A stretch of DNA of 64,000 nucleotides, from the IMG/VR virus record IMGVR_UViG_3300029908_000007, positions 1-64,000 of that record; one strand, written 5' to 3'. The notes below the pieces were generated by a model. The model saw nothing but the letters and a program-made list of their open reading frames with translations, did not search any database and was not told the DNA's origin. Each line of letters opens with the position of its first letter. Position 1 is the first letter of the stretch. Shown here piece after piece: positions 11,248 to 59,453 of the stretch. This DNA is from a virus. The position numbers and the translations under genes are program-made.

Positions 11248-11255
11248 TAAAGATT
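11248..11255 (-). promoter_or_regulatory. AATCTTTA promoter-like box
   Basis: Minus-strand AATCTTTA upstream of the gene starting at 11232, followed by TTTCGAGGAC and the ATG. One of twelve copies all directed toward a gene. Confidence 0.55.
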
Positions 11256-11266
11256 GTTTTTTGGGT

Positions 11267-11277
11267 TATGATATAAG
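11267..11277 (+). promoter_or_regulatory. Extended -10 promoter
   Basis: TATG-A-TATAAG, with the gene at 11296 downstream behind a normal RBS (TAGGAG). It lies back to back with the minus-strand AATCTTTA box at 11248, giving a divergent promoter region. Confidence 0.6.
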
Positions 11278-11295
11278 AACGGGTAGGAGACGGTT

Positions 11296-11571
11296 ATGAT
11301 GGAACAAATCACACAATATTTAGTTAATTTCCTTAATGTTATTCAGGGATTGCGTAAGACCGCAGTTATGTTTGGTCTGATGGCTATTGCCGTCGTTTTG
11401 AGGATTAAAGGGTATATGGATGGAACCAATGTCAGTGATCTTTTAAAAGGAACCGCAGTTGCCTTCTTTGCTGCCAATGGTTTAGAGCATGTGACGACGA
11501 CCGTCAAAACCTATATCAATTCTAAAGGAAAAATTAAGGACGAGAGTATTGTCAACGTCGAGGAACGCTAA
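11296..11571 (+). CDS. Putative holin-like membrane protein
   Basis: 91 residues with a hydrophobic helix (about 22-38) and a second weaker one (LLKGTAVAFFAANGLEHV), then a charged C-terminal tail. Size and topology fit a phage holin, and it heads four small membrane or exported genes. No specific family match. Confidence 0.5.
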   Translation: MMEQITQYLVNFLNVIQGLRKTAVMFGLMAIAVVLRIKGYMDGTNVSDLLKGTAVAFFAANGLEHVTTTVKTYINSKGKIKDESIVNVEER

Positions 11572-11687
11572 TGAATAAATCCAAACTCCTCGTCATCCTG
11601 GCTATCATCCTCTGCCTGCTTTCACAAAGCTATCGGGTTTACCGTTTCTCACAAAAACAACTGACAAGGAGTTCAAATGCTCGTTAA
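11571..11687 (+). CDS. Small membrane peptide
   Basis: 38-residue frame starting on the last base of the upstream stop (TAATG) and overlapping the next start. One hydrophobic helix (LLVILAIILCLL) and a basic tail (YRVYRFSQKQLTRSSNAR). Supported by tight packing and membrane-like content. Confidence 0.5.
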   Translation: MNKSKLLVILAIILCLLSQSYRVYRFSQKQLTRSSNAR

Positions 11688-11991
11688 ATTAAAAGCTATT
11701 GCTGCAACGGTTTGGGCTGATGTTGTTGATACCTACAAACGTTGCAAAATTATTTTACTAGCCGTAGGAGCCTGTATAGTTTATTTAGAATTCAATAAAA
11801 TAAAAGAAGCCCTTTTAGTCTCTGGAGAGAAAAAAGAAATGGCTTCTGATAATAAACAGGATCAGGCCTTAGCCACTAAAGAGAAGACCGAGAATGATGC
11901 CGCCAATGTTCTTGTAGCAGATGCTAATAAGCTAGGCCAGCAATCTACCACCCCTGTGGATCCGGATTGGTACGAAAAGGATAAAAAATGA
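11677..11991 (+). CDS. Membrane-anchored periplasmic-type protein
   Basis: 104 residues: one transmembrane helix (about 24-41, CKIILLAVGACIVYLEF) and a polar Lys/Glu/Ala-rich tail. Overlaps the preceding small gene and the next gene by 4 bases. Topology fits an inner-membrane spanin subunit, but no family is recognised. Confidence 0.55.
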   Translation: MLVKLKAIAATVWADVVDTYKRCKIILLAVGACIVYLEFNKIKEALLVSGEKKEMASDNKQDQALATKEKTENDAANVLVADANKLGQQSTTPVDPDWYEKDKK

Positions 11992-12919: not shown

Positions 12920-12920
12920 A

Positions 12921-13718: not shown

Positions 13719-13719
13719 A

Positions 13720-17389: not shown

Positions 17390-17390
17390 A

Positions 17391-21116: not shown

Positions 21117-21124
21117 TTAAACTC

Positions 21125-21457
21125 CTAAACTATAATTATATCAGCGCCGCTATCGATTACTATTGAGCCAGCTAGAGAAATTTCTAAACTAGGTGCAATC
21201 CATGTTTCATCGGTATTAACGATCACATTACCTGTAACGCTTCTCATGGTAATAAAGCCCTGAGCTTCGATAGCCCCACTGTCTTGAACTGAAGTGCCGG
21301 GACTATTTTTAATAGTGGTACCCGTTGTATCAGCCCACCGCGTAATAGCGTCAATCGTAGTAGGCGAGATGCCAGTTACATTTCCAGATCCACTACTAGA
21401 AGTGTTAACCAGCTGTAATTCCCCAGTAAAATAGTTCAGTGCAACTTTGTAAGCCAT
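21125..21457 (-). CDS. Short tail fibre segment protein
   Basis: 110 residues, beta-rich. N-terminus YKVALNYFTGELQLVN resembles the start of baseplate-linked fibre proteins; the middle shares the (I)TRWADTTGTTIKNS pattern seen in modular fibres. Overlaps both neighbours or abuts them, so part of the fibre operon; may connect fibre and baseplate. Confidence 0.55.
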   Translation of the reverse strand: MAYKVALNYFTGELQLVNTSSSGSGNVTGISPTTIDAITRWADTTGTTIKNSPGTSVQDSGAIEAQGFITMRSVTGNVIVNTDETWIAPSLEISLAGSIVIDSGADIIIV

Positions 21458-22152
21458 TATGTTCTCACCACACTAAGAAGATTAGCGGCCCCATCGTAAG
21501 TCAATGTGAGGGTAGCTACAGTCACCGTAGCTTGTTTATAGACCACAATTGTAGGGACGACTTGCCCACCAATAGTAGAATTAGTGAGATCGATTTCGTT
21601 GAACTTGTCGGGGACTAATTGAGCAAGATTAATAGTATTTATGCTACCGTCAGCGTTTACGTCGAGTTGATTCTTATCTGGAGCGGGCCCAACAATTCCT
21701 ACTTCTCCAATAGATATGGTTCCGTCAAACGTAACAGGTTTGGGGTTATTTGGACCGTAAGGATTTCCGTATGGGTCAATATCTATAACTCTATCAGCCA
21801 TGACAGGAGCTGGCAGATATACGGCGTTGTAATGGTCATCTCGTGGAATGGGAAAATTGTTTTGTTCGGGTGCAGAAATAGTCGCGTCATCAGCAACCAA
21901 ATAAGCACTAATATCGCTGTGATTTGTGGGAGAAGCCTTGAGACTATTATTATTTGGACCCACTATCAATTGGGTGGGGCTAAGAATGTTTTTGATTTGA
22001 AATAATGCTTGTTGGAGCGCGTTGGATTGGAGATTGATTTGCTGTTTTATATAGAAACCAGCGGTACTGTCAATGGTAACAACGCCCAAAGACGTACCAT
22101 TAGATGTGAAAGCCTGCGGGGGTACCGCAGCCAATTTCTGTTCAAAAGCCAT
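21457..22152 (-). CDS. Fibre-operon structural protein
   Basis: 231 residues from the ATG at 22152 (a TTG three codons upstream is possible). AAGGAT precedes the start. N-terminal SNGTSLGVVTIDSTAGFYIK and a central NFPIPRDDHYNAVYLPAP segment suggest a baseplate or fibre-base protein. First gene of the fibre operon, behind an AATCTTTA box and a leader with two hairpins. Confidence 0.6.
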   Translation of the reverse strand: MAFEQKLAAVPPQAFTSNGTSLGVVTIDSTAGFYIKQQINLQSNALQQALFQIKNILSPTQLIVGPNNNSLKASPTNHSDISAYLVADDATISAPEQNNFPIPRDDHYNAVYLPAPVMADRVIDIDPYGNPYGPNNPKPVTFDGTISIGEVGIVGPAPDKNQLDVNADGSINTINLAQLVPDKFNEIDLTNSTIGGQVVPTIVVYKQATVTVATLTLTYDGAANLLSVVRT

Positions 22153-22248: not shown

Positions 22249-22256
22249 TAAAGATT
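22249..22256 (-). promoter_or_regulatory. AATCTTTA promoter-like box
   Basis: Minus-strand AATCTTTA (context ACC-AATCTTTA-CCATATACC), upstream of the fibre operon. Distance to the first ATG is about 97 bases, filled by two hairpins. Confidence 0.55.
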
Positions 22257-24166: not shown

Positions 24167-24177
24167 GTTATATCATA
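24167..24177 (-). promoter_or_regulatory. Extended -10 promoter of the chaperonin
   Basis: Minus-strand TATG-A-TATAAC about 24 bases before the ATG at 24142. It overlaps the stop codon region of the endonuclease gene upstream. Here the transcript keeps a leader with RBS, unlike the leaderless genes. Confidence 0.6.
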
Positions 24178-25570
24178 AGTCTATGATCCATCGTTTCTTT
24201 CCACAATCCCAGATTCGAACGTAGCCAAGTGATTGAGCCATTTCTTTCTCAGTTTCTCCTATAGCACCCTTTTCAAGAAGATGCTTTTTTTGACAAGATT
24301 GTTTTGAAATTCTCTTATTTCGATATACATAGGAATAGTCAGGTTTTAAATTCTCTTCCATGACGAATCCCGTTTTTTCATAAACCCCTCCAATAGACCA
24401 ACGATTGTCGGACCAGGAAACAAGTTTTTTATAACTATTTTTCTTAGCATAATCTATAAGAGAAGTCAGCAATTTAGAAGAACCTCCGGAAACAGAAATT
24501 CCTCTTTTAAAAACCAATCTATTAAGCGCTAAAATCTCTCCATCTCCTTGACGATGATGATTGTTTCCCGTTACTAAACCGACTAGCTCTTCGTTATAGT
24601 ACAATCCAAAAGCTATTTTGATTGGAGCAGATCCTTGGATATGATGTTCGTCTAAAAAAACTCTAGCTACTTCCTTAGGAACTTCTTGAATTTGAGTCTT
24701 CCTTCCCATAATTTTTGTAGGATTTTTACCAATAGTAGACAGCAAAAAGTTTTTAATTTGATCCTTTCTTTCGGACCATTCGTCGCCAAAGATAGTTATC
24801 AAGCGTATTCCGTCATTTTGAGCCTTAATCATTTTATTAAAGTGGTACATTTCTTCTCTTGGAGTAGGACTTTCTTCGTTATGCCAGTATAGTCCACAAT
24901 ATTCTATGCCTATATTAAGTTCTGGTAAGTGTATGTCTATTTCGCTTCCACCAGCTCTATGTTTAAACTTATATTTTTCTACCTTCAAACCCAGACTTTC
25001 CATCCATTCTTTTATTTCTATTTCAAAACTAGAAGTTCTATTGCATCCAGAACAGTGCATGCACGAATTTTTAATGACGGTATGGATTTTACTAGTTTCT
25101 CTAGTATTTAGACATTTAAGGCATTTAATAATAAAAGATTTTGTTTTGCTTTGAAACCCAGAAACATACTCAAATCCTCTTTCGTTGAGCATTAGTTTTA
25201 TTTGCTCTAGCGCTTCTGGAGATCCAGCCTGTTCCTTATAAGCATTCCTCATATTTTCCATAGCAAGCGGATCTTTAGCTAATTTTGCTTTATAGGCATG
25301 CTTTTGACGTTCTTCTGGAGAAAGGAGGACGTTTTTTTCTTTATTAATTTCTTTTACTTTACTAAGTTTTACACCGCTTAACGCCACTATTTCTTTGTTG
25401 GTTTTACCTTGTTTTTTTAAGGAAACCACGAAATCAATCTGCTCTTCGGTATATTTTATCTTGCTTTTAGCAACGATAGCGGCAGTACACTCTTTCGAAC
25501 AAGAGTTTCCTCTGCCTATCCATTTATATTCAAATTCTTTACTGCAGTTTTTGCAATTCGCAACTTTCAT
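24173..25570 (-). CDS. Free-standing homing-type endonuclease with GNAT-like C-terminal domain
   Basis: 465 residues from the ATG at 25570 (longer in-frame starts at 25582 and TTG 25606 overlap the promoter). Zinc clusters CKNC...CSKEC at the N-terminus, a helix-turn-helix-like centre, CLKC/CMHC, then a Vsr/PD-(D/E)XK-like core GSEIDIHLPELNIGIEYCG followed by YWHNEE. The C-terminal ~200 residues (KIMGRKTQIQEVPK, HHIQGSAP, YKKLVSWSDNRWS) match the same region of the endonuclease at 48876. Inserted between the chaperonin and the capsid genes; typical mobile intergenic nuclease. Confidence 0.75.
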   Translation of the reverse strand: MKVANCKNCSKEFEYKWIGRGNSCSKECTAAIVAKSKIKYTEEQIDFVVSLKKQGKTNKEIVALSGVKLSKVKEINKEKNVLLSPEERQKHAYKAKLAKDPLAMENMRNAYKEQAGSPEALEQIKLMLNERGFEYVSGFQSKTKSFIIKCLKCLNTRETSKIHTVIKNSCMHCSGCNRTSSFEIEIKEWMESLGLKVEKYKFKHRAGGSEIDIHLPELNIGIEYCGLYWHNEESPTPREEMYHFNKMIKAQNDGIRLITIFGDEWSERKDQIKNFLLSTIGKNPTKIMGRKTQIQEVPKEVARVFLDEHHIQGSAPIKIAFGLYYNEELVGLVTGNNHHRQGDGEILALNRLVFKRGISVSGGSSKLLTSLIDYAKKNSYKKLVSWSDNRWSIGGVYEKTGFVMEENLKPDYSYVYRNKRISKQSCQKKHLLEKGAIGETEKEMAQSLGYVRIWDCGKKRWIIDL

Positions 25571-25577
25571 ATCTAAT

Positions 25578-25606
25578 AGCATATAATAAAGATTGCGGCT
25601 TGTCAA
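25578..25606 (-). promoter_or_regulatory. Promoter of endonuclease gene (with AATCTTTA in the spacer)
   Basis: TTGACA (25606-25601), 17-base spacer, TATGCT (25583-25578), then 7 bases to the ATG at 25570, giving a leaderless transcript. The spacer contains AATCTTTA (25594-25587), itself 4 bases before the alternative ATG at 25582, so two promoter types may overlap. Confidence 0.5.
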
Positions 25607-28442: not shown

Positions 28443-28562
28443 AATAAATCTCCTTTAAAAAAGTTAGCCCACATGGGGGCATAAATACGCGTATCTACAG
28501 TTAAACATTGTTCTTAATATAGAAAACACTGCAATTTCAATAAGTTAATTAAAATAAAAAGC

Positions 28563-28590
28563 TTGACTTCTTTAATAGTTATGATATAAC
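28563..28590 (+). promoter_or_regulatory. Sigma-70-type promoter with extended -10
   Basis: TTGACT (28563-28568), 16-base spacer ending ATGA, TATAAC (28585-28590). Drives the HNH gene at 28643. Confidence 0.65.
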
Positions 28591-28601
28591 TTACATAGAA
28601 C

Positions 28602-28624
28602 GGTAATCTTTAATTAGGATTACC
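28602..28624 (+). promoter_or_regulatory. AATCTTTA box inside an inverted repeat
   Basis: AATCTTTA (28605-28612) overlaps the perfect inverted repeat GGTAATC/GATTACC (28602-28608 with 28618-28624). In the transcript from the promoter at 28563 it would form a 7-bp hairpin just ahead of the RBS (TAGGAG). Confidence 0.5.
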
Positions 28625-28642: not shown

Positions 28643-29269
28643 ATGAGAGGCCACAATTTATTAGGCAAAACGTTTGGAAAGCTAACAGCAGTAGAAAGAA
28701 TTGTGCGCGAAAATCCCGAAAAGGGGGAGCAAAGAAGTCGATGGCTTTTTAATTGTGAATGCGGGAGTACTAGAATATCCAAAGCAAGTGCTGTGGTTAA
28801 GGGCTTTATTAAAAGTTGTAAAGAATGTACCGCTAAAGAATACAAAAGTGCTCAAGGAGCACGCGGAAGAAATAAGAAATTTGAACCAAAAGAAGCTTCA
28901 TTCAGAGCAAAGGCTTCTAACGTCAAAGCTCACGCTAAAATTAGAAACATCCCATGGGCTTTGACTTTAGAGCAAACTTCCGAAATATTAAAAATGGATT
29001 GTCATTATTGTGGATGTGGGCCCTCCAATCCTTACAATACTTTTAAAAATAGGAGTTGGAAACAGTCTCTTAAATATCCCAAAGAAAATGTTTTGGAGAA
29101 AGGTGAAATATTGTATAACGGTGTTGATAGGTTAGATAGTGATATTGGTTACACACCCGAAAATTCGGTCCCATGTTGTACTTTTTGCAATGTCGCTAAA
29201 AATGATAGACCTGTAGAAGAATTTCTAATTTGGCTGGATAAATTAGTTAAATTTAGGAGCAAAATATGA
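28643..29269 (+). CDS. HNH-type endonuclease
   Basis: 208 residues. N-terminal zinc-ribbon-like part with FNCECGS and CKECT, then basic helices, CHYCGCGPSNP, and the HNH-like end NGVDRLDSDIGYTPENSVPC followed by CTFCNVAKND, typical of phage HNH homing enzymes. Own promoter; the start overlaps nothing upstream and its stop overlaps the phosphoesterase start (ATGA). Confidence 0.8.
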   Translation: MRGHNLLGKTFGKLTAVERIVRENPEKGEQRSRWLFNCECGSTRISKASAVVKGFIKSCKECTAKEYKSAQGARGRNKKFEPKEASFRAKASNVKAHAKIRNIPWALTLEQTSEILKMDCHYCGCGPSNPYNTFKNRSWKQSLKYPKENVLEKGEILYNGVDRLDSDIGYTPENSVPCCTFCNVAKNDRPVEEFLIWLDKLVKFRSKI

Positions 29270-29935: not shown

Positions 29936-29943
29936 AATCTTTA
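29936..29943 (+). promoter_or_regulatory. AATCTTTA promoter-like box
   Basis: Located 53 bases before the ATG at 29997 (context AATT-AATCTTTA-CATTGAATATT). The leader contains CCAACCAACGTTGG, a possible small hairpin, and an AAAGGAG RBS. Confidence 0.6.
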
Positions 29944-31617: not shown

Positions 31618-31625
31618 AATCTTTA
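31618..31625 (+). promoter_or_regulatory. AATCTTTA promoter-like box
   Basis: Context GATC-AATCTTTA-CATC, 54 bases before the ATG at 31680; the leader has a GGGAGG and a later AAGGGG near the start codon. Confidence 0.6.
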
Positions 31626-38306: not shown

Positions 38307-38314
38307 AATCTTTA
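38307..38314 (+). promoter_or_regulatory. AATCTTTA promoter-like box
   Basis: Context CAATG-AATCTTTA-ATTAGTAAAGG, 22 bases before the ATG at 38337. Confidence 0.6.
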
Positions 38315-38807: not shown

Positions 38808-38811
38808 TTAG

Positions 38812-44511: not shown

Positions 44512-44519
44512 AATCTTTA
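44512..44519 (+). promoter_or_regulatory. AATCTTTA promoter-like box
   Basis: Context GAATC-AATCTTTA-TGTGTATAAGG, 18 bases before the ATG at 44538, which has an AAGGGG. Confidence 0.6.
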
Positions 44520-44537: not shown

Positions 44538-45224
44538 ATGGCCGAAAACAATAAAACAGTTTCAGCACGCGATGCAATTCTAGCCGTTCTCGCCAAGGCC
44601 AAACAAGTCCTTGAAACTTCCGATCTTGTTAAATCCGAATACAAGACTGAAAATTCCCCTAAGCCCGGCGTTAAGTATGGCAAAATTGAAACCGCTCAAA
44701 AAGCGACCGAACGCGATTATAAAGAATATGAAGTGAAATCAGGTGGTTCCAAGGATTCTACCGGCCCTCGTGTTGCTAAGCAAATTTCTCCAAGTGGTAA
44801 TCCAAAAGAAGAAGCTGAAGGCAACAATAAGCCCGATGGCATGGAACCCCACTACGAGTTTAAAGACAAGGTTGCCGGAGAATTGGCTAAAGAAAAGAAA
44901 GCTTTAGGCAAGGCTGAAAATCCAGATAAAGAGCAAGACGCTGCGCTTGGTGAAAAAGTCGAGAACGACGTCGAAGAACATTTTAAAGAAAATGCAGGCG
45001 CTGAACGACAAGAAGGACATTCTATGGCTAATCCTGAAGATAAGACCGACAAAGCAACAACGATTCCAAGGCTGATTTTGTCGGCTAAACTATCGAAATT
45101 TATGGAATTTCGCCACGCAAAGAAAAAAGCTCAAGAATCCGCCGCCGCCGTAGGATCTCCAGCCGCTTCTGCTCCAGCCCCAAGATCGACCCAGGATAGT
45201 CAACCGGACACAAAGAAGATATAA
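44538..45224 (+). CDS. Charged virion-region protein
   Basis: 228 residues, Lys/Glu-rich and probably extended, with a helical N-terminus (SARDAILAVLAKAKQVLETS) and a C-terminal helix KLSKFMEFRHAKKKAQ. Composition suits a scaffold-like or internal head protein. No family recognised. Confidence 0.6.
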   Translation: MAENNKTVSARDAILAVLAKAKQVLETSDLVKSEYKTENSPKPGVKYGKIETAQKATERDYKEYEVKSGGSKDSTGPRVAKQISPSGNPKEEAEGNNKPDGMEPHYEFKDKVAGELAKEKKALGKAENPDKEQDAALGEKVENDVEEHFKENAGAERQEGHSMANPEDKTDKATTIPRLILSAKLSKFMEFRHAKKKAQESAAAVGSPAASAPAPRSTQDSQPDTKKI

Positions 45225-45226
45225 TA

Positions 45227-45823
45227 ATGAAAACCTGTTCGAAGTGCGAAATCACAAAAGACCTTGAATGTTTTGGGAAAGCTCCCCAAAACAAAGACGG
45301 TCTTAATGGGCAATGCAAAGAGTGTAGAGCCGCTTATTTACTAGATTATAATGAAAAAAACAAAGAAAAGGTTATGGCGGGTCAAAGAAGATATTATAAA
45401 GAAAACAGGGTAGAGATTATAGAAGAAAAAAAGATCTATCGTGCTTTGAATTTAGAAACTATCAAACCCAAAACCAATGCTAGACTCAGGGCTAGAAGAA
45501 AAAATGATCCTCAATTTAAATTGGCAGCTAATTTAAGAGGACGTCTTAATATGGCTATTAAAAGAGGGTACAAGGCAGGTTCGGCGGTAGATGATTTGGG
45601 ATGTTCTGTAGAATCTTTTAAATCTTATATAGAAGGTCTACTCCAGCCGGGCATGACATGGGCTAACTATAGCCCAAGAGGATGGCATTTGGATCATAAA
45701 GTCCCCTTGGCTAGCTTTGATTTAACAGATAGAGAACAGTTTTTGAAGGCTTGTCATTACACCAATTTACAGCCTTTGTGGGCCGTAGACAATATTAAGA
45801 AAGGTGACAAAATTTATGGCTAA
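45227..45823 (+). CDS. HNH endonuclease
   Basis: 198 residues. N-terminal zinc motif CSKCEITKDLECF...CKECR, basic helices, then the HNH core GWHLDHKVPLASFDLTD and NLQPLWAVDNIKKGD. Typical free-standing phage HNH nuclease, inserted between the gene at 44538 and the small gene at 45816, overlapping the latter by 8 bases. Confidence 0.85.
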   Translation: MKTCSKCEITKDLECFGKAPQNKDGLNGQCKECRAAYLLDYNEKNKEKVMAGQRRYYKENRVEIIEEKKIYRALNLETIKPKTNARLRARRKNDPQFKLAANLRGRLNMAIKRGYKAGSAVDDLGCSVESFKSYIEGLLQPGMTWANYSPRGWHLDHKVPLASFDLTDREQFLKACHYTNLQPLWAVDNIKKGDKIYG

Positions 45824-46082
45824 GAAACAAACTCAAGCCGCAGAGATGACTCTAGAAGAAGCGAAGGCTTTTCGAGCTGCTTTAGCTCGTCCCCAAGAAA
45901 AAACTTTGTCCGGTAAACAAAGACGCGAAGCTTTTAAAGCCTTTTGGGCCCAAAATAAAAAAGCCTACGGCATGACCAATAAGCTAGAAGAAATTCTTTG
46001 GCTTCATATGGTTGCCACTAAGAACGATGAACCCGCTAATTTCGAAGCCGGTTTAAAACATTTTGGAATCAAGAAAGTTTAA
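45816..46082 (+). CDS. Small helical protein before the tail sheath
   Basis: 88 residues, helical (MTLEEAKAFRAALARP, KLEEILWLHMVATK). ATG 45816 lies inside the end of the endonuclease gene. Position directly before the sheath suggests a tail-related or assembly gene. No family recognised. Confidence 0.6.
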   Translation: MAKKQTQAAEMTLEEAKAFRAALARPQEKTLSGKQRREAFKAFWAQNKKAYGMTNKLEEILWLHMVATKNDEPANFEAGLKHFGIKKV

Positions 46083-46097
46083 TAGGGAGAAATACAA

Positions 46098-48236
46098 ATG
46101 AATCAGCAATTAGTCACTCCAAATGTGTCGACAAACATTCCAGGCACTTATGTTAATTATACCGTACTAAGTCAGCCAATCGGCGTAACTTCCAGCGGTA
46201 TTCTTTTGATCATGGGCGAAGCCGCAGGCGGCCCTAGCTACGAACAAGTCGCGCTTAAAAACAGCGTTTACACACCCGATCAGCTTCAAAAGGTCATCCA
46301 GACCTACACCAGCGGTCAGATCGTCGACGCTTTCCAGGCCATTACCGCTCCTTCTAACGACGCCAACATCTCGGGTACCGCTACCCAAATCTACGTCGTT
46401 AAGACCAACACGGGAACCAAAGCTAATGCGACACTTCCTAGTTCTTATGGAACGCTAACCGATATCAACTGGGGAGTTCTTGGAAATCAAGACCAATATC
46501 AAACTTTAGCTGTTCAAGCCGAAGTCGCTCCCACTGTGACCGGTGGAACCATTCCTTCTTTCAGTGCAACTCCCAACGCTACTTTTACCGTTCGCTTGAA
46601 CGGTGGCGCTGCTATGGTTGCAACGGTTGGATCCGGTCCCTATACTACGGGCGCTCAAGTCGCTGCTTCCATCACCGGGCTCCCATCTGGTATCACCGCT
46701 AGCGGTAACGCTACTTCTATCACTTTAACTGTCACTGCAGACGCTTCTGCTTGGGGTAAAGGTTGGGGTAAGAGCTTCGAGCTTATCGACAGCACTCCAG
46801 GCGATCTGGCAGCTTTAGGTCTTGCTCCTGGTTTGACCGTTTCTTCGGAAGAACCTGAAATCGAACTCCAAGATTCCAATGCTTCTCGCGGTGTCAGCGA
46901 AACCTTAACTGCCAACGCAGCGGTAGCTCTTGCTGTTGGTTATGCTGGAACCACAGCTACTCTCACTATTGCCTTGGTTTCTGGCGTCTATACCTTAACC
47001 ACAACGGTTACCGGCGGCAGCGGTGGAAATCTGAGCATTAACTTAAGCCAGTATTCCACAATCGGCGCTTTGGCGACATTCATTGCAAGTCAAATCGGCT
47101 ACTCCGCCACTGTCATTCCTGCCGCTAATTCTCTTCCTACTTCGGCATTGGACGCGGTTTCTGCAATAGGTATTTGCGCAACTGGCGCTGGAGACGAACC
47201 CGGTCGTATTAAAATGGGACTTTATCAGTTCGAACAAGCGATGGCCACCAGCAAACAGTTGGTTTTCACGCCAATCGCAACCGCAGGGCTTCCCGCTCCT
47301 ATGACCGCCCCCGCTTATCTGACTGGCGGAACCATCGGCGCCACTCTGGCTGCTGATATCGTTAATGTCGTCGACACCCTGGGCGGTGTAAACGTTGACA
47401 TTATCGTTCCATTGTTCTCGCAAAACGCTAGCGCCGATATCATCGCTGGTTTGACGGATCCTGCTTCGACTTATACGATTGCCGCTATCAATGCATTGCT
47501 TAAGAGTCATTGTATTGAGGAAAGCAATCCGAGCCTTAACAGAAACCGTATTTGTATCTTGTCTATGAACAGTACGTTTGCAATTGCCGCAGCCGCCGCT
47601 CAAGGCCTTGCAAGCGCTCTGTGTTCTTTGACCTTCCAGAATGTAACACAGGTTAATAGCCTTGGTGTTATCACTCAGTTCCAACCTTGGTACGCCTCGG
47701 TTGTCGCTGCTGGCATGCAGTTGGGCGGATTTTACAAAGCCATTGTAAACAAATACGCAAACCTGATCAGTATCATCGATCCATCGGACTACGATAGTGG
47801 GTCTCCTGGCGATACCTCAGAAGCTTTGTCTGCTGGTTTGCTTCCTCTATATACCGATATCGGTGGACCTAAATGGGTTAGCGATCAAACAACCTACGGA
47901 ATCGATTCCAACTTTGTGTGGAATTCAATCCAGGCCGTGTACGACGCCAACTTGATCGCAAAAGATCTGAAAGTCAGTTTCACCAATGCTTTTGTTGGTC
48001 AAAGTTTGGCCGACGTTTCCGCAGCATCAGCTTCTGCTTTCTTAACGCAGAAGATGGCTGGCTACATGCAGCTTAAACTGATTGCGCCTAGCAATGGTGC
48101 CCCACTTGGTTTCAACAATGCGAAGATCACAATTGTCGCACCTACAATGACCGTGGCCGTGAACATCTATCTCGCAACGGCGATTTATTTTATTCCAATC
48201 AGCTTCAGTATCTCAGCTGTGGAACAATCGGCTTAA
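46098..48236 (+). CDS. Contractile tail sheath protein
   Basis: 712 residues. N-terminus NVSTNIPGTYVNYTVLSQPIG, a central inserted beta domain (about 140-330, Thr/Ala/Gly-rich), and the conserved C-terminal domain (AKDLKVSFTNAFVGQSLADV, FLTQKMAGYM, ITIVAPTMTVAVNIYLA) as in myovirus sheath proteins. Polymerises round the tube and contracts on infection. GGGAG precedes the ATG; the tube gene follows. Confidence 0.85.
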   Translation: MNQQLVTPNVSTNIPGTYVNYTVLSQPIGVTSSGILLIMGEAAGGPSYEQVALKNSVYTPDQLQKVIQTYTSGQIVDAFQAITAPSNDANISGTATQIYVVKTNTGTKANATLPSSYGTLTDINWGVLGNQDQYQTLAVQAEVAPTVTGGTIPSFSATPNATFTVRLNGGAAMVATVGSGPYTTGAQVAASITGLPSGITASGNATSITLTVTADASAWGKGWGKSFELIDSTPGDLAALGLAPGLTVSSEEPEIELQDSNASRGVSETLTANAAVALAVGYAGTTATLTIALVSGVYTLTTTVTGGSGGNLSINLSQYSTIGALATFIASQIGYSATVIPAANSLPTSALDAVSAIGICATGAGDEPGRIKMGLYQFEQAMATSKQLVFTPIATAGLPAPMTAPAYLTGGTIGATLAADIVNVVDTLGGVNVDIIVPLFSQNASADIIAGLTDPASTYTIAAINALLKSHCIEESNPSLNRNRICILSMNSTFAIAAAAAQGLASALCSLTFQNVTQVNSLGVITQFQPWYASVVAAGMQLGGFYKAIVNKYANLISIIDPSDYDSGSPGDTSEALSAGLLPLYTDIGGPKWVSDQTTYGIDSNFVWNSIQAVYDANLIAKDLKVSFTNAFVGQSLADVSAASASAFLTQKMAGYMQLKLIAPSNGAPLGFNNAKITIVAPTMTVAVNIYLATAIYFIPISFSISAVEQSA

Positions 48237-48258
48237 TTTAGTATAAGGAGAATGAAAA

Positions 48259-48789
48259 ATGGCTGGAGCACAACTACCTAATTTAAATCCCACCAATGGT
48301 GGAACAGGTCAAAGCTACACCGTAACTGGTGGAAGAGCTTTGCTTTATTTACCTAATCAATCTGGGCAACTGGTGTTGGCTGGGACCTTTGATACCGTTA
48401 GCAGAGGCCGAGGACTTGGGACTGAAGCAATTCATACCCTCGGTCAATATTCGGCCCGCGAAATTGCAATTACTTCTTACAACGAAGTTACTGTAAATTG
48501 TAGCGGATTCCGTGTAGTCGGAGCTGGAACTACGGTTCTTGGTCATTTCCCCACACTTGCTGAGATCTTAAACTATTCATCTGTCACAATCAAAGTTGTT
48601 GACAGGCAGACTGGCGATACGATTTTAGTCGTAACCGGCGCTGTTCCTACTACAGACAATGAGAACTATTCGAGCCGAGCCACCACCAAGACATCGATTT
48701 CTTATACGGGAATCGCGGCTTTCGATGAATCGACCACTGATTCTTCGGGTAATCCGACAGATGGTGAAGGCACGCCAAGTTGGCCATAA
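48259..48789 (+). CDS. Tail tube protein
   Basis: 176 residues, beta-rich, right behind the sheath with an AAGGAG RBS. Short, polar N-terminus followed by VTGGRALLYLPNQSGQLV and a late helix region; length and position are those of a myovirus tail tube. It ends at a strong terminator, consistent with abundant expression. Confidence 0.75.
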   Translation: MAGAQLPNLNPTNGGTGQSYTVTGGRALLYLPNQSGQLVLAGTFDTVSRGRGLGTEAIHTLGQYSAREIAITSYNEVTVNCSGFRVVGAGTTVLGHFPTLAEILNYSSVTIKVVDRQTGDTILVVTGAVPTTDNENYSSRATTKTSISYTGIAAFDESTTDSSGNPTDGEGTPSWP

Positions 48790-48875: not shown

Positions 48876-50210
48876 ATGAATAGAACTTGGACTTTAGAAA
48901 AATTACAGAACGAAGCTATAAAATACACAAAAAGATCTGCTTTCCAAAAGGGAAGTAAGACGGCCTACAATACGGCTCAGCGCAAAAACCTACTGGACAT
49001 TATCTGTAAGCACATGGAAGCCTTTAACATCAATGGCGACAGAAATCCTAATTTTAAATGGTCCCTGGATATTTTAAAACAAGAAGCTCTGAAGTACAAT
49101 TCAAAAAGCGAATTTAAAGATAAAAATCCAAAAGCTTACCACGCAGCTTGGTACAGCGATGTGCTAGATGAAATCTGCTCCCATATGAAAAACCTTCTCC
49201 ATTATTGGACGGACGAAGAATTGGCCAAAGAAGCTTTAAAACATAAAAGCAGAACCAAATTTGAAGAAAAAAGCGGAAGTGCCTATCTAACCGCTTGTAG
49301 ACGAGGTCTTATAGATGAAATCTGCGTACATGCTCCAAAAAATGAGAAGAAAAGCTATGTACAAAAAGAAATATTTGATTTCATTAACTCTTTTTATCCT
49401 GATACCGTATACGATACTAGAAAAGTAATATCTCCGTTGGAACTAGATATTTACATACCATCATTGAAGCTAGCCATTGAATATTGTGGCCTATATTGGC
49501 ACTCAGAAGAATATAAAGAAAATAGCTACCATTATGATAAAATGAAATTTTGCAATGAAAAAGGTATAAGACTGATTACAATATTTGAAGATGAATGGCT
49601 AAAAAGGCAGGATCAAGTAAAGAACCTTCTTAAGTCGGTTATCAATAAAAATGAGTTCAAAATAATGGGAAGGAAAACTAAAATTAAAGAAGTGCCCAAA
49701 AAAGAAGCTAAAGAATTCTTAGAACAAAATCATATTCAAGGGTCTTCTGTATTTGAAATATCGTTTGGTTTGTATTATTTTAACGAACTACAAGCAGTAA
49801 TTACCGGCAACAAACATCATAGACAAGGCCATTCCGACACGCTAGTTTTAAATAGATTGGCTTTTAAGACCGATGTGTCTATTGCTGGAGGCCCTTCTAA
49901 ACTTTTCAATCGTTTAGTGAGCTATGCGAAAGAAAGGGGATACAAGAGGTTAATTTCCTGGTCCGACAATAGGTGGTCTGAAGGAAATGTTTACAAAAAG
50001 TTAGAATTTGAATTAACTGAAAATTTACCTGCCGACTATTCTTATTTTAGCAATCAGTCTAGAATATCCAAACAATCTTGTCAGAAAAAGATGTTAATTA
50101 AAAAAGGTGCTAAAGGAGATATGTCTATGACCGAAAAAGAATTGGCTTTAAGTCTAGGTCTATATAGAATTTATGACTGCGGTAAGAAACAGTGGTCCAT
50201 TAATTTATAG
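48876..50210 (+). CDS. Repeat-containing homing endonuclease with GNAT-like C-terminal domain
   Basis: 444 residues. Three N-terminal repeats (A-x-K-Y...SAFQKGSKTAYNTAQ...LDIICKHM type), then a Vsr/PD-(D/E)XK-like core (LELDIYIPSLKLAIEYCGLY, WHSEEY) and a C-terminal part KIMGRKTKIKEVPKKEAKEF, HHRQGHSDT, RLISWSDNRWSEGNVY that is clearly homologous to the gene at 24173. The two enzymes differ in the N-terminal domain, showing module exchange. Confidence 0.75.
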   Translation: MNRTWTLEKLQNEAIKYTKRSAFQKGSKTAYNTAQRKNLLDIICKHMEAFNINGDRNPNFKWSLDILKQEALKYNSKSEFKDKNPKAYHAAWYSDVLDEICSHMKNLLHYWTDEELAKEALKHKSRTKFEEKSGSAYLTACRRGLIDEICVHAPKNEKKSYVQKEIFDFINSFYPDTVYDTRKVISPLELDIYIPSLKLAIEYCGLYWHSEEYKENSYHYDKMKFCNEKGIRLITIFEDEWLKRQDQVKNLLKSVINKNEFKIMGRKTKIKEVPKKEAKEFLEQNHIQGSSVFEISFGLYYFNELQAVITGNKHHRQGHSDTLVLNRLAFKTDVSIAGGPSKLFNRLVSYAKERGYKRLISWSDNRWSEGNVYKKLEFELTENLPADYSYFSNQSRISKQSCQKKMLIKKGAKGDMSMTEKELALSLGLYRIYDCGKKQWSINL

Positions 50211-50264: not shown

Positions 50265-50272
50265 AATCTTTA
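50265..50272 (+). promoter_or_regulatory. AATCTTTA box four bases from an ATG
   Basis: Context AAAAAC-AATCTTTA-CCTT-ATG. The spacing leaves no room for an RBS, and transcription from this box would start near the start codon. Confidence 0.55.
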
Positions 50273-50276
50273 CCTT

Positions 50277-52130
50277 ATGGCGACAGAAACTCCTAAAACC
50301 GGCCCAACATATATCCATGGTGTTGGATCTAGCACTGCAATTGATACTGCCGGAGAAATTGTGGATTTGGCCGGTATCGACTGTTCTGCACTTCTGCAAG
50401 GCCCATTTTCCTGGGAACATCAAAATACTCAACCAAATCAACTAGTTGGAAAAATATTAGAATACAAAAAGATCTTTTCTGAAGCTGATTGCGAAAACGA
50501 ACATCACAAACGCTTTTGGGAAAAATGCCAAAATCCGTTCCTTTATGTAATGGGACGTCTTTTTGATGATAAAAAGGACTCTTCAAAAGAAGTCGCTGCC
50601 TTATTCATAGACGATGCGGAACATCCTGATGAGCCCCCAATGGTTGGATTCAGCATCGAGGGCAGCAAAGTCGACAAAAAGGGTATTATAGTGACAAAAT
50701 CTATTGCTCGCAAAGTAACCGTGACAAATGCTCCCGCCAATAAACAGTGCGTCGCCGAACTCATTCCCGGCCCTGAAGTCAAACAAAAATCCGAAGACTC
50801 CATCTTTAAATCCGAATTCACCCATACCATCGATCTTGTAAAAACCGAACTTAAAAAAGACGGCAACATGCCCGCTCCTGCGGCCTCACCAAAACCTGAT
50901 CTGGGTTGGACCGCTAATCCTACCCCTTTTGGTAATCCTATGAGCAATCTAATGTCAGGACTTGGAATGGGTAAAAAAGAAATGAAAAAATCCCAGGTTC
51001 CTGGTAGCAAATATCCGCCGAAGTCTGATGTTAAGCCTGGAACTCCTCCCCAAGAAAAAGTTGGAGGCATTCCTAAGTTTGGACCCATTGCTAAACCAAC
51101 ACCCAAACCTTTAGAAAAAGCCCGTGTTGATGAAGGCAAGACTCCGGAACGAAAAGCTTGGGATAGATCTGCTAGAAATGATAGAACTGGCACCACAACT
51201 ACAACTTGGATTAAACGTCCTAGTGCGGTTGGAGAATTGCTGGGTGCAAAACCTAAAAAAGAAACTCAAACCAATACTCGTTCCCATGCAGCCGCCGGTA
51301 ACATCGATATGAGAATCGGAACTGCCGCAACCCCAGGACATGCGCCCAGAACATCGTCTACACATGGCGGTGGGACCGTTACGTCGAGTAGAAAAGTAAT
51401 AGGTACACCTGCTAAATCAATGCAAAAAGCAATGACCGCTGGATCCGGTATGGCTGGACCCGGTACCCTTAGTGGTGGTGCCGCGCTTAGTAAGGAAAGT
51501 CTTGACAAGAAGATGAAAAAGGCCGAACTTTTGAAACGCGCCAAAGAAGCCTACCAGACCTGGGAAAAGAGAGAAGCTTTTGAGAATTTTATGGCAAAAA
51601 GTATGCCAGAACTTACGAAGCATGAAATTATTGCTATTGGTCAAACGATTGCTTTGTCTAAGTCCTTAAAAGCTGAAGCCAAATTAGCCAAGATGCTAAC
51701 TTCTAAAGAAGCTATTGATGAGAACGAAATCGGGACCAAGTTCGACAAGAACATGGCAGGCGACAATATCAGTTCTTATGTTTCGCCTGCAACTGGCAAT
51801 CTAGGTGCTTCTGAAGATTTTAAGAAAGCTGAAAAGAAAGCCCCTGGTGAATATGGTAATGTTGAGCCACATACTAGCCATAAAGGTATGATGGGTTTAG
51901 GTTTCGACTTTCACATGAAACAGAGTGGGATCCATAAGGAACACGCCGAAAAAGCCCATACTAGCGGAAATAAAGATTTGGGCCAGAAGCACCGTGAAAT
52001 GGCCGAAATGCATCGCATGTATACTCACGCTCTTCCTCATGAAAAAGATGAGCCGGGTCGTGATTATTCTTCCGCTGAAAAAAGCGCTAAAAAATTAAGG
52101 ATTGCCTTAACAAAATCTGAATCTGAATAG
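50277..52130 (+). CDS. Putative prohead protease with long C-terminal extension
   Basis: 617 residues. Residues ~10-160 resemble the prohead protease fold of large phages: GVGSSTAIDTAGEIVDLAG, FSWEHQNTQPNQLVGKIL (candidate catalytic His) and VTVTNAPANKQCVAEL at the end. The following ~450 residues are Lys/Pro/Gly-rich with Ala-rich coils, ending in a helical HEHAEKAHTSGNKD-like domain (HKEHAEKAHTSGNKDLGQKH). The extension may be a core/scaffold part cleaved during head maturation. The catalytic Ser cannot be assigned with confidence. Confidence 0.6.
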   Translation: MATETPKTGPTYIHGVGSSTAIDTAGEIVDLAGIDCSALLQGPFSWEHQNTQPNQLVGKILEYKKIFSEADCENEHHKRFWEKCQNPFLYVMGRLFDDKKDSSKEVAALFIDDAEHPDEPPMVGFSIEGSKVDKKGIIVTKSIARKVTVTNAPANKQCVAELIPGPEVKQKSEDSIFKSEFTHTIDLVKTELKKDGNMPAPAASPKPDLGWTANPTPFGNPMSNLMSGLGMGKKEMKKSQVPGSKYPPKSDVKPGTPPQEKVGGIPKFGPIAKPTPKPLEKARVDEGKTPERKAWDRSARNDRTGTTTTTWIKRPSAVGELLGAKPKKETQTNTRSHAAAGNIDMRIGTAATPGHAPRTSSTHGGGTVTSSRKVIGTPAKSMQKAMTAGSGMAGPGTLSGGAALSKESLDKKMKKAELLKRAKEAYQTWEKREAFENFMAKSMPELTKHEIIAIGQTIALSKSLKAEAKLAKMLTSKEAIDENEIGTKFDKNMAGDNISSYVSPATGNLGASEDFKKAEKKAPGEYGNVEPHTSHKGMMGLGFDFHMKQSGIHKEHAEKAHTSGNKDLGQKHREMAEMHRMYTHALPHEKDEPGRDYSSAEKSAKKLRIALTKSESE

Positions 52131-52144
52131 ATCTTAATTTCCCC

Positions 52145-52168: not shown

Positions 52169-52190
52169 AACCTCTGTACTGGGAGGCATT

Positions 52191-52553
52191 ATGGGCACAA
52201 AAGTGTTTTGTTACAGGAATTTACACCAAAAAGGCGTCGTTTGGTCAGTAAAAAATGTTAAAACCGGATTAGTAATAGATAGATCTAAAACCGTATACAT
52301 TTCAATGGCCGATCTCATAGTTTCTCAAGCCGGACGCGATAGAGTGATAAGAGAGAAGAGAAAGCATGTCCACGCCGGTATCAGGGGTAAAAGGATCAAA
52401 GCAGCCCCTAAGAATGTGGTTTGGATTAAAGCTACTTACAATCCATACTTATATAACTCTTTTGTTACTTCCGAAGATGAAATTCCTATTCATTCTGCCA
52501 GATATGCTAAATTAAATAGGTTTGGTTTGTGGATTGGAAACCTTAAGCGTTGA
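52191..52553 (+). CDS. Conserved small phage protein
   Basis: 120 residues, basic. The run KVFCYRNLHQKGVVWSV...SQAGRDRVIREKRKHVHAGIRG resembles a small conserved protein seen in many phages (pattern Y-R-N-L...W-S-V...A-G-R-x-R-V...K-x-V-H-A), of unknown function. GGGAGG before the ATG. Convergent with the endolysin gene, overlapping by 11 bases. Confidence 0.6.
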   Translation: MGTKVFCYRNLHQKGVVWSVKNVKTGLVIDRSKTVYISMADLIVSQAGRDRVIREKRKHVHAGIRGKRIKAAPKNVVWIKATYNPYLYNSFVTSEDEIPIHSARYAKLNRFGLWIGNLKR

Positions 52554-53145
52554 AATATCTAGCATTCCCAACAGGATGTAGGTCGATATGAATCCATGTT
52601 GGAGTATTGCGTTCCATCCTAATCCCGTACTTCTCTAAAAATGGTTCCAAGATCCCATGCGTTTGTTCTATTGTAAGTTTAGGACTGCAATCGAAATCGC
52701 AAGCCAAAAACTGGGCATGGACATCGTTTGGAATTGCCTTGACTACTTGAGCGTTATACTCCGGAGAACGATACATACAATGCACGGATATAGGGCACCC
52801 CAGCAACGTCCTAATTTCTTCCATCTTATTGCAAAGTACTACTAGTTTTGCTTTCCCATCATCAGTTAAGCCGTCTGCTGCCGTAGCCAGTCGATTCCAA
52901 CTATGTAAAGTAACGGCATCTCCCACAGTGAAATGGGGGGTAATGGAGTAGTCCTTGTTGGTCCAGTCGATCGCCCCCACAGGGGTGATCCCAGCAGCAG
53001 GCGAGGAAGACTCAGGAGCCACCGCAGGTTCTTCCTTAGGCGCCCCAATAGGGATATCTACCGAGATCTCTGTCTTTCCATCAGCCTTATTACTAAGAAA
53101 ACTTAACAGTATCTTACCCAATGTAGCCCAAATCGAATCGCCCAT
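52543..53145 (-). CDS. Peptidase M15-like endolysin
   Basis: 200 residues. A short hydrophobic N-terminus (WATLGKILLSFLS) and Ala/Pro linker precede the M15 peptidase domain: SVHCMYRSPEYNAQV, His143 and Asp150 in HAQFLACD, and WIHIDLH with His186, the zinc ligands of D-Ala-D-Ala carboxypeptidase-type endolysins. Cleaves peptidoglycan cross-links at lysis. Upstream AATCTTTA box and GGAG suggest late expression. Confidence 0.75.
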   Translation of the reverse strand: MGDSIWATLGKILLSFLSNKADGKTEISVDIPIGAPKEEPAVAPESSSPAAGITPVGAIDWTNKDYSITPHFTVGDAVTLHSWNRLATAADGLTDDGKAKLVVLCNKMEEIRTLLGCPISVHCMYRSPEYNAQVVKAIPNDVHAQFLACDFDCSPKLTIEQTHGILEPFLEKYGIRMERNTPTWIHIDLHPVGNARYFNA

Positions 53146-53164
53146 ATTATCTCCTTGACATCGG

Positions 53165-53172
53165 AATCTTTA
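53165..53172 (+). promoter_or_regulatory. AATCTTTA promoter-like box (divergent pair, plus)
   Basis: Context TCGG-AATCTTTA-ACTGG, 35 bases before the ATG at 53208. Faces the minus-strand copy at 53186-53193 in the same 62-bp gap. Confidence 0.6.
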
Positions 53173-53185
53173 ACTGGTAACCTTA

Positions 53186-53193
53186 TAAAGATT
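53186..53193 (-). promoter_or_regulatory. AATCTTTA promoter-like box (divergent pair, minus)
   Basis: Minus-strand AATCTTTA with TATAAGG downstream, 40 bases before the endolysin ATG at 53145. The two boxes overlap each other's leader but both point toward their own gene. Confidence 0.6.
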
Positions 53194-53207
53194 GTCGTGG
53201 TAAATAC

Positions 53208-53522
53208 ATGAGATTAGACATAGTTTTTGGGTCGGATGGGACAAAAAAGAGAGTAGTTTGGGATCAATCTCTTGAGTCCTTCCCAAAGCTCATGTTGTAC
53301 CAGGGCAAGAAATGGGAATGGGCAATGTATAAGGAAACACCATACGCGGATTACGAACTCATTTATTCCCAACTCCCTACCTATGACCCCAATTTCTACG
53401 TGAACGACTACACGGTTTTCGAAGACAGATTTGAGAAAAGCATTGGCTGCGAATGCGGAGCACATTGGACCAGCTTTCCAAATTTTCACATGTTTTATTG
53501 TAAAAAATGGGTAGCCTGGTAA
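53208..53522 (+). CDS. Small Trp/Tyr-rich hypothetical protein
   Basis: 104 residues, rich in Trp, Tyr and Phe; a short cysteine pair (GCECGAHW) and KKWVAW end. No family recognised. Its stop overlaps the next start (TAATG). Confidence 0.6.
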   Translation: MRLDIVFGSDGTKKRVVWDQSLESFPKLMLYQGKKWEWAMYKETPYADYELIYSQLPTYDPNFYVNDYTVFEDRFEKSIGCECGAHWTSFPNFHMFYCKKWVAW

Positions 53523-53890: not shown

Positions 53891-53918
53891 ATGGTGACGA
53901 CTTAATCAATTTGCTGGA

Positions 53919-54680: not shown

Positions 54681-54690
54681 GAAACACTAC

Positions 54691-54888: not shown

Positions 54889-54891
54889 AAA

Positions 54892-55530: not shown

Positions 55531-55531
55531 A

Positions 55532-56587: not shown

Positions 56588-56588
56588 T

Positions 56589-58448
56589 TTAGGCGCCTTC
56601 TTCCTCATCAAGAAGCATATCTTCTATTTCCATGGAAAGCAAATCTTTTATTAGTTCGGGTGGTCTAGGAGCATATAAGGCCTTGATAGCGTTAGGATTT
56701 GCTTGCATTAAAAGTTGAAAATTTTGAAGCCAGAAGGCATCACGTTTGAATTTAAGTAAAGGATCAAAAATTGCGCCAGGGTCTCCAAAGAACCTAGTTC
56801 TGACTTCGCCGACGTTCGAATAAAAATCGAGTACCTGTCTATAACGCTCATTAAACGGAACCGCTCCGCCCATTGCCTTACCAACCGGATCTAGATCAAC
56901 TTCTCTTTGTAGCGTATCGTAGTCGTAGAAAAGTGCGGAGTCCTGTTGAAGACGTGCGGCTTCCTGCTCCTTTGATTCGGAATCGAGGCCGGAAAGTTTT
57001 ATTTCTACGATTTGTGCGAGTTCGGCGTCGATGATTGGAAGCAGTCGTTGATTTAAAAATACCTGCCAGCCTAAGATCAAAGGGCGCAAGCCGGAATCAC
57101 GAGCGGCGGTCATTTTAAATTCGTTATTACTTTCGCTGAGAGTTTGAGAATTTGTTCCCTTAGACAGATGTCCATACCCAGGAATTTCATCAGGCGACAC
57201 ACCGAATGCCGCCAAAATATTTCTGGCTATTTGATCGTAAGTATAAGAGAATTCGGAATCGCCAAGTTTGTCCGCCGTACCAATCCACGCGACGTCATCT
57301 TCTTTCGCGATCCCAAAGATCGGGGTTCTAAAAGCGTTGGAGACAGAATTGATAGATGCGTTGAATTGCATTTTAATTGCATCAAGCATCTGTTGATCAA
57401 CCTCGTCGCTCTTGATAACTAACATCCCTTTGGCTGATTTACCGTTACTGAAATATGTTTTCCAGTAGGCTTCGATAGAAATATGCGTGGTGATGCAATT
57501 CATACAGGTATCTAGTGGTGAAACCGGATAGCCGTTGTGCTCGATGTCGGTGCTTGGGAAGAGATTGTAGACAAGCATTTCATTCGACGTAAACGCCTGT
57601 CGTGGCTGCATTTCAATAACTTGTAGCCAGGTATACTCGTCTTCCTTGAGTTTTTGCATGTCGATGTTAAACGACGCGCCTTCCATTTGCTCCAATGCTT
57701 TTAGCGCAAGTTCTCTTAGATTATTTCCAACGCTTTCGCCTTTACGAACGGCACGAAAAATTGTAGCAATATCTACGGGACGAAATCTATGAAAAGGATA
57801 ATTACCGTCTTTGTCGGGATCCTTAGATCTGTCGTAGATAATTTCAGTGCCATGCGATCCAAAAGCAAGTCCGTTTTGAGTTTGAATGCTCAAGTAATCC
57901 GATAACACCATTTGGTCTTGGTGTTCCAAACCCTCGGTGTGTCCGCAATTAAGCAAAATCTTTTCCAGACGTTTGATTCTTTCCACGACTTTTGTGTACT
58001 GCTCAGGAGTCAATAGTTTTAAAAACTCCGGTCTGATATCAACTTCAACACCAACGTCGAAACGGTCCTTTTTGAGGTGACCGTAGAGTTTCATGATGTT
58101 GCCGCGAGTTCTTAGAATGGCGGCGACAAGATGGTCGGTGACACGGATGGCCTTGATGAGTTCGGGAGGAAGCAGACGGGTACGGGCTTTGAACAAGCCT
58201 AAAAAATTTGATTGCGGTGCTGGGAGTTCGGAAAATGCAAGAGAGGGAGCTTTTTTCTTAGCAGCGGTTCCAGACAGAACTCTAATAGCTTCTGATAATG
58301 GTTTGGTTTCGCCCTTGCGTAGATCAGTTCCTGGAACTGCCAAAGCTTCTAACGCTTTGGCCAAAGACGTTAGGCTATGCTCTTGGCTTCCTTCTTCAGG
58401 ACTATCACCAAAGGTAATGCTGACGGTTTTTTTATCTTTGACGTCCAT
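56589..58448 (-). CDS. Portal protein
   Basis: 619 residues. Helical N-terminal part with LLPPELIKAIRVTDHLVAAI, a clip/stem-like centre (YPFHRFRPVDIATIFRAVRK) and the helical end typical of portals, FKMTAARDSGLRPLILGWQV, and DYDTLQREVDLDPVG. Large size fits jumbo-type myophage portals. Forms the dodecameric channel for DNA packaging. Follows a leaderless-type promoter; no RBS is present. Confidence 0.85.
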   Translation of the reverse strand: MDVKDKKTVSITFGDSPEEGSQEHSLTSLAKALEALAVPGTDLRKGETKPLSEAIRVLSGTAAKKKAPSLAFSELPAPQSNFLGLFKARTRLLPPELIKAIRVTDHLVAAILRTRGNIMKLYGHLKKDRFDVGVEVDIRPEFLKLLTPEQYTKVVERIKRLEKILLNCGHTEGLEHQDQMVLSDYLSIQTQNGLAFGSHGTEIIYDRSKDPDKDGNYPFHRFRPVDIATIFRAVRKGESVGNNLRELALKALEQMEGASFNIDMQKLKEDEYTWLQVIEMQPRQAFTSNEMLVYNLFPSTDIEHNGYPVSPLDTCMNCITTHISIEAYWKTYFSNGKSAKGMLVIKSDEVDQQMLDAIKMQFNASINSVSNAFRTPIFGIAKEDDVAWIGTADKLGDSEFSYTYDQIARNILAAFGVSPDEIPGYGHLSKGTNSQTLSESNNEFKMTAARDSGLRPLILGWQVFLNQRLLPIIDAELAQIVEIKLSGLDSESKEQEAARLQQDSALFYDYDTLQREVDLDPVGKAMGGAVPFNERYRQVLDFYSNVGEVRTRFFGDPGAIFDPLLKFKRDAFWLQNFQLLMQANPNAIKALYAPRPPELIKDLLSMEIEDMLLDEEEGA

Positions 58449-58457
58449 ATAGACCCT

Positions 58458-58468
58458 TATATATCACA
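58458..58468 (-). promoter_or_regulatory. Extended -10 promoter of the portal gene, near-leaderless
   Basis: Minus-strand TGTG-A-TATATA, then 9 bases (AGGGTCTAT) to the ATG at 58448. Confidence 0.6.
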
Positions 58469-58470
58469 AC

Positions 58471-59424
58471 TTACTCAGTACTAAGCAAGGTAATGTTGGA
58501 CAGGTTGATCGAGGTATTGGTAACCGCGAGGCTATAGACAGTTGCATTGAGCAAGAATAAACCGGGATTGACTAGACCGTTACTCACGAGCGGAGTAATG
58601 GTTGGACCAGGAGTTCCGCCGTTAATAATCAATTGCGTGTCCTGATCGACTTCCATATAGACCATGGTTTTGGCCATACTGTAAATGGCGACTTCTGTGG
58701 TAATAGGTCCTTCGGTTGGAAGATCCCCGGTATAACTAAACTGAACCCAATAATCGGTTACCAGGGTAATCTGATATGCGTTTTGAGAAACCGGAGAAAA
58801 GCCCGACGTGATCGCCAGAGTATCGCCGATTTGAACACCAGCAGCACTAAAAATCCTAACTTGATTAGCATAATCAGACCCCAAGGTGATAGGACCTTCG
58901 ATATAACCGCTTGGATTTACTACTGTAAAGCTATTACTTGTTTTGGAAATAATCTGCCAAATACCAGTAGTTCCCTGGTTTAGGGGATTGAAATTACTGC
59001 CGATTAATACGTCGTCGCCGGGCTGAACCGAGGTGAGTGTCGGGAGAGTCCCGCCAGTGAAGGTGTAGGTTAGAAGAGGGCCATTTACAGAAGTTGTGAC
59101 CTGAGTCGTAGCGTCGCTGCCGATAGTTCTTAGAGTTCGAAAAGTAGGAGCGGTGCCACCGGTATTGATGAGCTGGTAGATGCTGGTTTGAAACGGAGCG
59201 AGTGCTAGGCTGTATTGAGTGGTTCCATCTTGGGTGAGTGTTCTGGCACCACTAAAGAGCGTCTGTGTGGCGCCTGCGGCAACCTGGAACGTTTCAGAGA
59301 GCGCATTTTCAATAGTGGCGTTACTGATTTCGCGTGTCCATCTAAAATTTTGGGCGCGAGGCTGGTTTGAGGGACAACTGTCTTCGTAAGCATTAAGAAA
59401 AATGAGAGTTTTAAGAGTGGCCAT
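58471..59424 (-). CDS. Putative structural protein
   Basis: 317 residues, Thr/Ser/Gly-rich and beta-rich, with few charges; several strands of the YTFTGGTLPTLTSVQPGDDV type. An AATCTTTA box and GGAG precede its ATG, pointing to late expression. Virion decoration or fibre-like protein; no family recognised. Confidence 0.6.
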   Translation of the reverse strand: MATLKTLIFLNAYEDSCPSNQPRAQNFRWTREISNATIENALSETFQVAAGATQTLFSGARTLTQDGTTQYSLALAPFQTSIYQLINTGGTAPTFRTLRTIGSDATTQVTTSVNGPLLTYTFTGGTLPTLTSVQPGDDVLIGSNFNPLNQGTTGIWQIISKTSNSFTVVNPSGYIEGPITLGSDYANQVRIFSAAGVQIGDTLAITSGFSPVSQNAYQITLVTDYWVQFSYTGDLPTEGPITTEVAIYSMAKTMVYMEVDQDTQLIINGGTPGPTITPLVSNGLVNPGLFLLNATVYSLAVTNTSINLSNITLLSTE

Positions 59425-59445
59425 CGTTTTACGCTCCTGGTAAGA

Positions 59446-59453
59446 TAAAGATT
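59446..59453 (-). promoter_or_regulatory. AATCTTTA promoter-like box
   Basis: Minus-strand AATCTTTA (context GATG-AATCTTTA-TCTTACC) 21 bases before the ATG at 59424. Confidence 0.6.

Follow-up and report, generated by a model that had tools for sequence, protein, structure and literature searches.

A repeated gene-directed box as a probable late promoter element in Mx1-like phages with a truncated sigma factor

Results

The 8-mer AATCTTTA, when preceded by C, T or G, is very probably a late promoter element read by a phage sigma factor together with the host core RNA polymerase, with a subset of these promoters predicted to give leaderless mRNAs. This reading was supported by the orientation and position of the copies, the absence of a −35, a purine initiator at a constant distance, conservation across a clade of phages and a phage-encoded sigma without the domain that reads a −35. 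The DNA analysed (the window) was the first 64 kb (64,000 nucleotides) of an IMG/VR phage record of 162,308 bases, the whole of which is here termed G000. Genes were called with a simple home-made dicodon model, and their starts were checked partly by conservation. Overall, we lean towards the wider view that, in a widespread and mostly uncultured Mx1-like clade (150–177 kb in most long contigs), the −35 domain of the late sigma was lost at a single fixed point and about one in ten late mRNAs, including that of the prohead protease here, is leaderless by design, the initiating purine being the A of AUG.

Occurrence and orientation of the box

A total of 15 copies of AATCTTTA were found in the window, exactly at the positions and on the strands listed in the first-pass annotation, a number reached by none of 100 shuffles. 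The chance expectation given there of about two copies per 64 kb proved too low, as the shuffles gave 4.66 ± 1.99 copies because the genome is AT-rich. Twelve copies were intergenic, 4–96 nt upstream of a predicted gene start on the same strand, with never an A before the box nor a G after it, while the other three (4031, 32587 and 51971) were antisense within genes, all of which agreed with the initial description. Furthermore, the whole-genome count that had been proposed as a check gave 29 copies in G000, 22 of them intergenic in a genome of which 9% is intergenic, and the positional bias was seen there as well. With all 8-mers counted and no prior choice, AATCTTTA was the top-ranked upstream 8-mer in G000 (20 of 29 copies, p=4e-25), and it was among the leading ones in the relatives G001–G003 (151–165 kb, with terminase identities of 76–80%). 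The next-ranked upstream signals in G000, TATGATATA and CTTGACTT, each represented one half of a sigma-70-like promoter.

When G000–G003 were pooled, 75 of 93 copies of [CTG]AATCTTTA were intergenic and gene-directed, compared to none of the 25 copies of the A-preceded form AAATCTTTA, and each single-base variant of [CTG]AATCTTTA had at most five such sites. The true element is [CTG]AATCTTTA, the bias being lost when an A comes before the 8-mer. Of the 46 boxes between co-directional genes, 45 pointed with the genes and one against them; moreover, 33 boxes lay between divergent genes and none between convergent genes. A conserved −35 was sought and rejected, in line with the earlier statement that none is shared, as the relative entropy was close to zero over positions −45 to −8 ahead of the box. 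A was weakly preferred at −6, −5 and −3 before the box and barred at −1.

Genes led by the box

The downstream genes had initially been described as mostly structural or lysis genes, which was borne out in part: six of the twelve boxes lead such units, two lead homing/HNH endonucleases and four lead unknown genes. On the plus strand, the box at 28605..28612 (predicted +1 28617) would drive an endonuclease VII/HNH-like gene (28643-29269) and has an early promoter, TTGACT..TATGATATAA, just upstream. Those at 29936..29943 (predicted +1 29948) and 53165..53172 (predicted +1 53177) would drive 29997-30473 and 53208-53522, respectively. The box at 31618..31625 (predicted +1 31630) would lead the unit from 31680, with a tail fibre gene at 33162, and that at 38307..38314 (predicted +1 38319) would lead 38337-42150, whose genes are orthologous to the tail region of Mx1. 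For the box at 44512..44519, which would lead 44538-48789 including the tail sheath gene, the predicted +1 (44524) is a T, off consensus, and for that at 50265..50272 it is 50277, the A of the ATG of the prohead protease gene (50277-52130).

On the minus strand, the boxes at 11248..11255 (predicted +1 11243) and 22249..22256 (predicted +1 22244) would each drive an unknown gene (10867-11232 and 21457-22152, respectively), and that at 25587..25594 a homing/HNH endonuclease gene (24173-25582), with 25582, the A of its ATG, as predicted +1. The box at 53186..53193 (predicted +1 53181) would drive the endolysin gene (52543-53145), and that at 59446..59453 (predicted +1 59441) would lead 58471, then the portal gene (56589-58448), and on to 53919. 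The boxes at 53165 and 53186 face each other within 53165-53193, where the predicted starts at 53177 (+) and 53181 (−) give an overlap of a few bases. Conservation in G001 and G002 was seen for the endolysin box and not for the facing arrangement.

Box-led units held 19 of the 25 genes classed as structural or lysis vs. 2 of the 10 classed as DNA metabolism (p=0.006), with the classes assigned by hand from homology and the units taken from the home-made caller. The boxes are termed late from the genes that they would serve. Some of them lead homing endonuclease, GroEL or dUTPase units, and no exact box was found before the major-capsid operon or the terminase gene, which are expected to be late. 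A one-mismatch variant of uncertain function, AATGTTTA (28502..28509, minus strand), lies 59 nt before the major-capsid operon. This operon has a leader of about 100 nt (28443-28600, minus strand) with a hairpin and the stretch TTAACTGTA.GATACG, common to G000, G002 and G003, and the leader had no match in Rfam. Four homing/HNH endonuclease genes occur among the structural genes (24173-25582, 28643-29269, 32153-33160 and 48876-50210), two with late boxes and two with sigma-70-type promoters.

A phage sigma factor ending at region 4

The gene at 63421-64476 on the plus strand (63421..64000 in the window) encodes a predicted sigma-70-family factor of 351 aa that comprises regions 2–3 and ends at the start of region 4. 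It was orthologous to the 'putative RNA polymerase sigma factor' of Mx1 (32%), and its product matched phrog_351. The similarity of its sequence to known sigma factors is weak: a profile of 24 homologues matched region 2 of SigA/RpoD (E=3e-6), and the Pfam model Sigma70_r2 was detected in just 2 of the 24 members, Pfam being nearly blind to this family. The AlphaFold model rose from a pLDDT of 47 with four sequences to 84 with 64 homologues, and its Foldseek comparison with Thermus SigA covered about 350 columns (E=1.3e-5), the TM-score of 0.4 being low, as expected for a flexible chain of several domains. The fold was shared with Thermus SigA and E. coli RpoD from region 2 through region 3 to where region 4 begins, but the phage sigma differs from them in its predicted −10 recognition and in having no region 4.2 helix-turn-helix.

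The C-terminus was basic and fixed, ending six residues from the start of an L[KR]G motif in 73 of 79 complete homologues. Since the chain stops at the start of region 4, the helix-turn-helix that reads the −35 is missing from the predicted protein. A region 4 (PF04545) was not found elsewhere in G000–G003 in a search that gave matches in control genomes, and all three frames beyond the sigma stop were searched for a split or frameshifted region 4, which was not found. The sigma was present in 20 of 23 box-clade records examined. A search for a single-subunit RNA polymerase gave no match, as it also did in the control genomes.

Conservation of the box in relatives

The closest annotated phage by its chaperonin (39%) was the cultured Myxococcus phage Mx1 (OR576727), which was also the only record matched in a tail sheath search; no closely similar phage record was returned by megablast with 22 kb as query. 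The capsid gene was found at 56–100% identity in 64 loci, and comparison with relatives showed that the signal recurs over this whole range. In particular, AATCTTTA was the top or near-top upstream 8-mer in loci at 68–100% capsid identity, and a related form was weakly enriched at 56–57%. In the other loci, the base before the box was mostly a pyrimidine, and the fourth and fifth bases after it were a T and then a purine.

The 8-mer itself has one copy in Mx1. Absence of the signal from this phage was nevertheless rejected, as the upstream regions of its late genes show the shorter form [CT]AATCTT, found before structural genes, while AAATCTT was never intergenic. Promoters go unmentioned in the Mx1 genome announcement (PMC10720576). 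Two other signals were observed in Mx1 (e.g. L052, L053), namely GATC[CT]GC, which in early-type promoters lies immediately 5′ of the −10, and AGATCAACG(C)AGTA, which in many cases precedes a start codon by 15 nt. The GATC motifs enriched in this phage were rejected as the late signal, as they belong to early-type promoters or to a separate class.

The box core was constant across phages of 37–55% GC, whose hosts presumably differ. This bears on the possibility that the box is recognised by a host alternative sigma, with the sigma homologue of the phage having another role, which the correlative nature of the link between sigma and box, and Mx1 alone having a known host, leave some room for. 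It is an unlikely reading, however, given the one core across such phages, the lack of a −35 together with a phage sigma that has no −35 reader, and the co-conservation of box and sigma.

Predicted transcription starts and leaderless mRNAs

Five bases after the box, a purine was present in 149 of 170 non-leaderless sites (non-redundant and without a nearby ATG), vs. 91 of 160 copies within genes; a purine is selected there, and transcription likely starts on it. Moreover, 21 of 196 sites had an ATG beginning exactly at the fifth base (offset 4), against an average of about three at the neighbouring offsets, and this spike was present in every group of loci. In G000–G003, eleven ATGs lay at 4–5 nt after a box and none at 0–3 or 6, and several N-termini were conserved among relatives. 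The purine and ATG phasings agree on one and the same +1. About one tenth of the promoters would place the A of the ATG at the predicted +1, as at 25582 and 50277 in the window, and the late mRNAs there should for this reason be leaderless. The same ATG spacing was found in Mx1 at 7617, 36563, 75289 and 121405. Leaderless phage late mRNAs are a testable prediction, and the box may serve to predict late units and correct gene starts in unannotated relatives.

The start point also weighs on the idea that a phage activator binds the box and recruits the sigma-70 holoenzyme of the host, in the manner of T4 MotA at −30 of middle promoters. TTGAC was indeed found near about 10 of 76 boxes, and some boxes lie inside a sigma-70 promoter. 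However, the initiator purine five bases after the box places the box at −10, no conserved −10 was found downstream of it, and the ATGs four bases downstream leave no space for a second one, which makes recruitment by an activator quite improbable. That the repeats are another DNA signal (replication, packaging or methylation) or an RNA-level leader signal, as their shortness and putative function might allow, is hardly credible in view of the 45:1 orientation toward genes, the absence between convergent genes, the +1-like purine phasing and boxes as near as 4 nt to an ATG, where there is no leader.

In the late promoter mechanism proposed, [CTG]AATCTTTA would be a −10-type recognition element (about −13 to −5), at which the host RNA polymerase core with the phage sigma (63421-64476) would open the DNA without a −35 and initiate on the purine five bases beyond the box. 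The weakly preferred A positions, at about −18 to −15, may be contacted by sigma region 3. The sigma gene would be read early from a host-sigma-70-type promoter, giving the early-to-late switch, and where an ATG stands exactly four bases past the box, transcription would start on the A of AUG and the leaderless mRNA would be translated as such.

Comparison with T4 and phiEco32

The resemblance to T4-like late promoters that had first been pointed out was retained for the mechanism, in which a single box precedes the start by roughly one helical turn, and not for ancestry, as the sequence differs, no match to gp55 was obtained in a weak test and no T4-type clamp gene was found. The late consensus of T4, TATAAATA, is not the box found here, [CTG]AATCTTTA, in which single substitutions lose the bias. 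T4 late promoters have one 8-bp box and no −35, and gp55 reads them together with gp33 and the gp45 clamp (PMC2988020, PMC7892883). The likeness lies in the single box placed roughly one turn ahead of the start (here a predicted one), the lack of a −35 and a divergent sigma without region 4; unlike gp55, the phage sigma here retains region 3 and ends at a fixed place in a basic C-terminus. An hhalign comparison with a single gp55 sequence, which is a weak test, gave a probability of 0.5%. Neither a gp45-type (PF09116) nor a DnaN-type clamp was found in the four genomes, the controls of the gp45 search holding no T4-like phage.

The gp36 protein of phiEco32, without region-4 homology, reads the 9-bp element tAATGTAtA of middle/late promoters, with no −35 and a start 6–8 bp downstream (PMC8948821). 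This single-element promoter with a sigma lacking region 4 is a closer precedent than T4. On the other hand, the centre bases differ from those of the box here (yAATCTTTA, whose predicted start lies five bases downstream), and the sigmas are of 214 aa in phiEco32 vs. 351 aa here. The comparison of the two sigmas by hhalign gave no match, again a weak test with a single-sequence template, and no leaderless placement was seen among the phiEco32 copies at ≤200 nt from a start in a 50-kb stretch. By analogy, the system described here would work like late transcription by T4 gp55 and phiEco32 gp36, with kinship claimed to neither. It would add a natural one-element sigma with region 3 and without region 4, which helps to ask what replaces the −35 contact.

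Early promoters

The early genes, including that of the sigma, carry predicted promoters of the sigma-70 type. Upstream of the sigma gene, TATGATATA (63401..63409, plus strand), the −10 of its presumed early promoter, was conserved in the four genomes, as would fit a gene transcribed early by the host polymerase. This promoter is so close to the ATG (63401-63421) that the sigma mRNA may itself be leaderless in several relatives.

A composite early/late promoter was observed outside the window at 106236-106265 (+) of G000, where TTGACA is followed by a late box in the spacer and then by a TATGATA-type −10. It was kept in all four genomes (104650 in G001, 105616 in G002 and 98195 in G003) and precedes a GTG/TTG-started gene for a coiled-coil and zinc-ribbon protein (GKSKR...CHEC...CNNC). 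No clear match to this protein was found in the Mx1 stretches searched, and it is a candidate late regulator.
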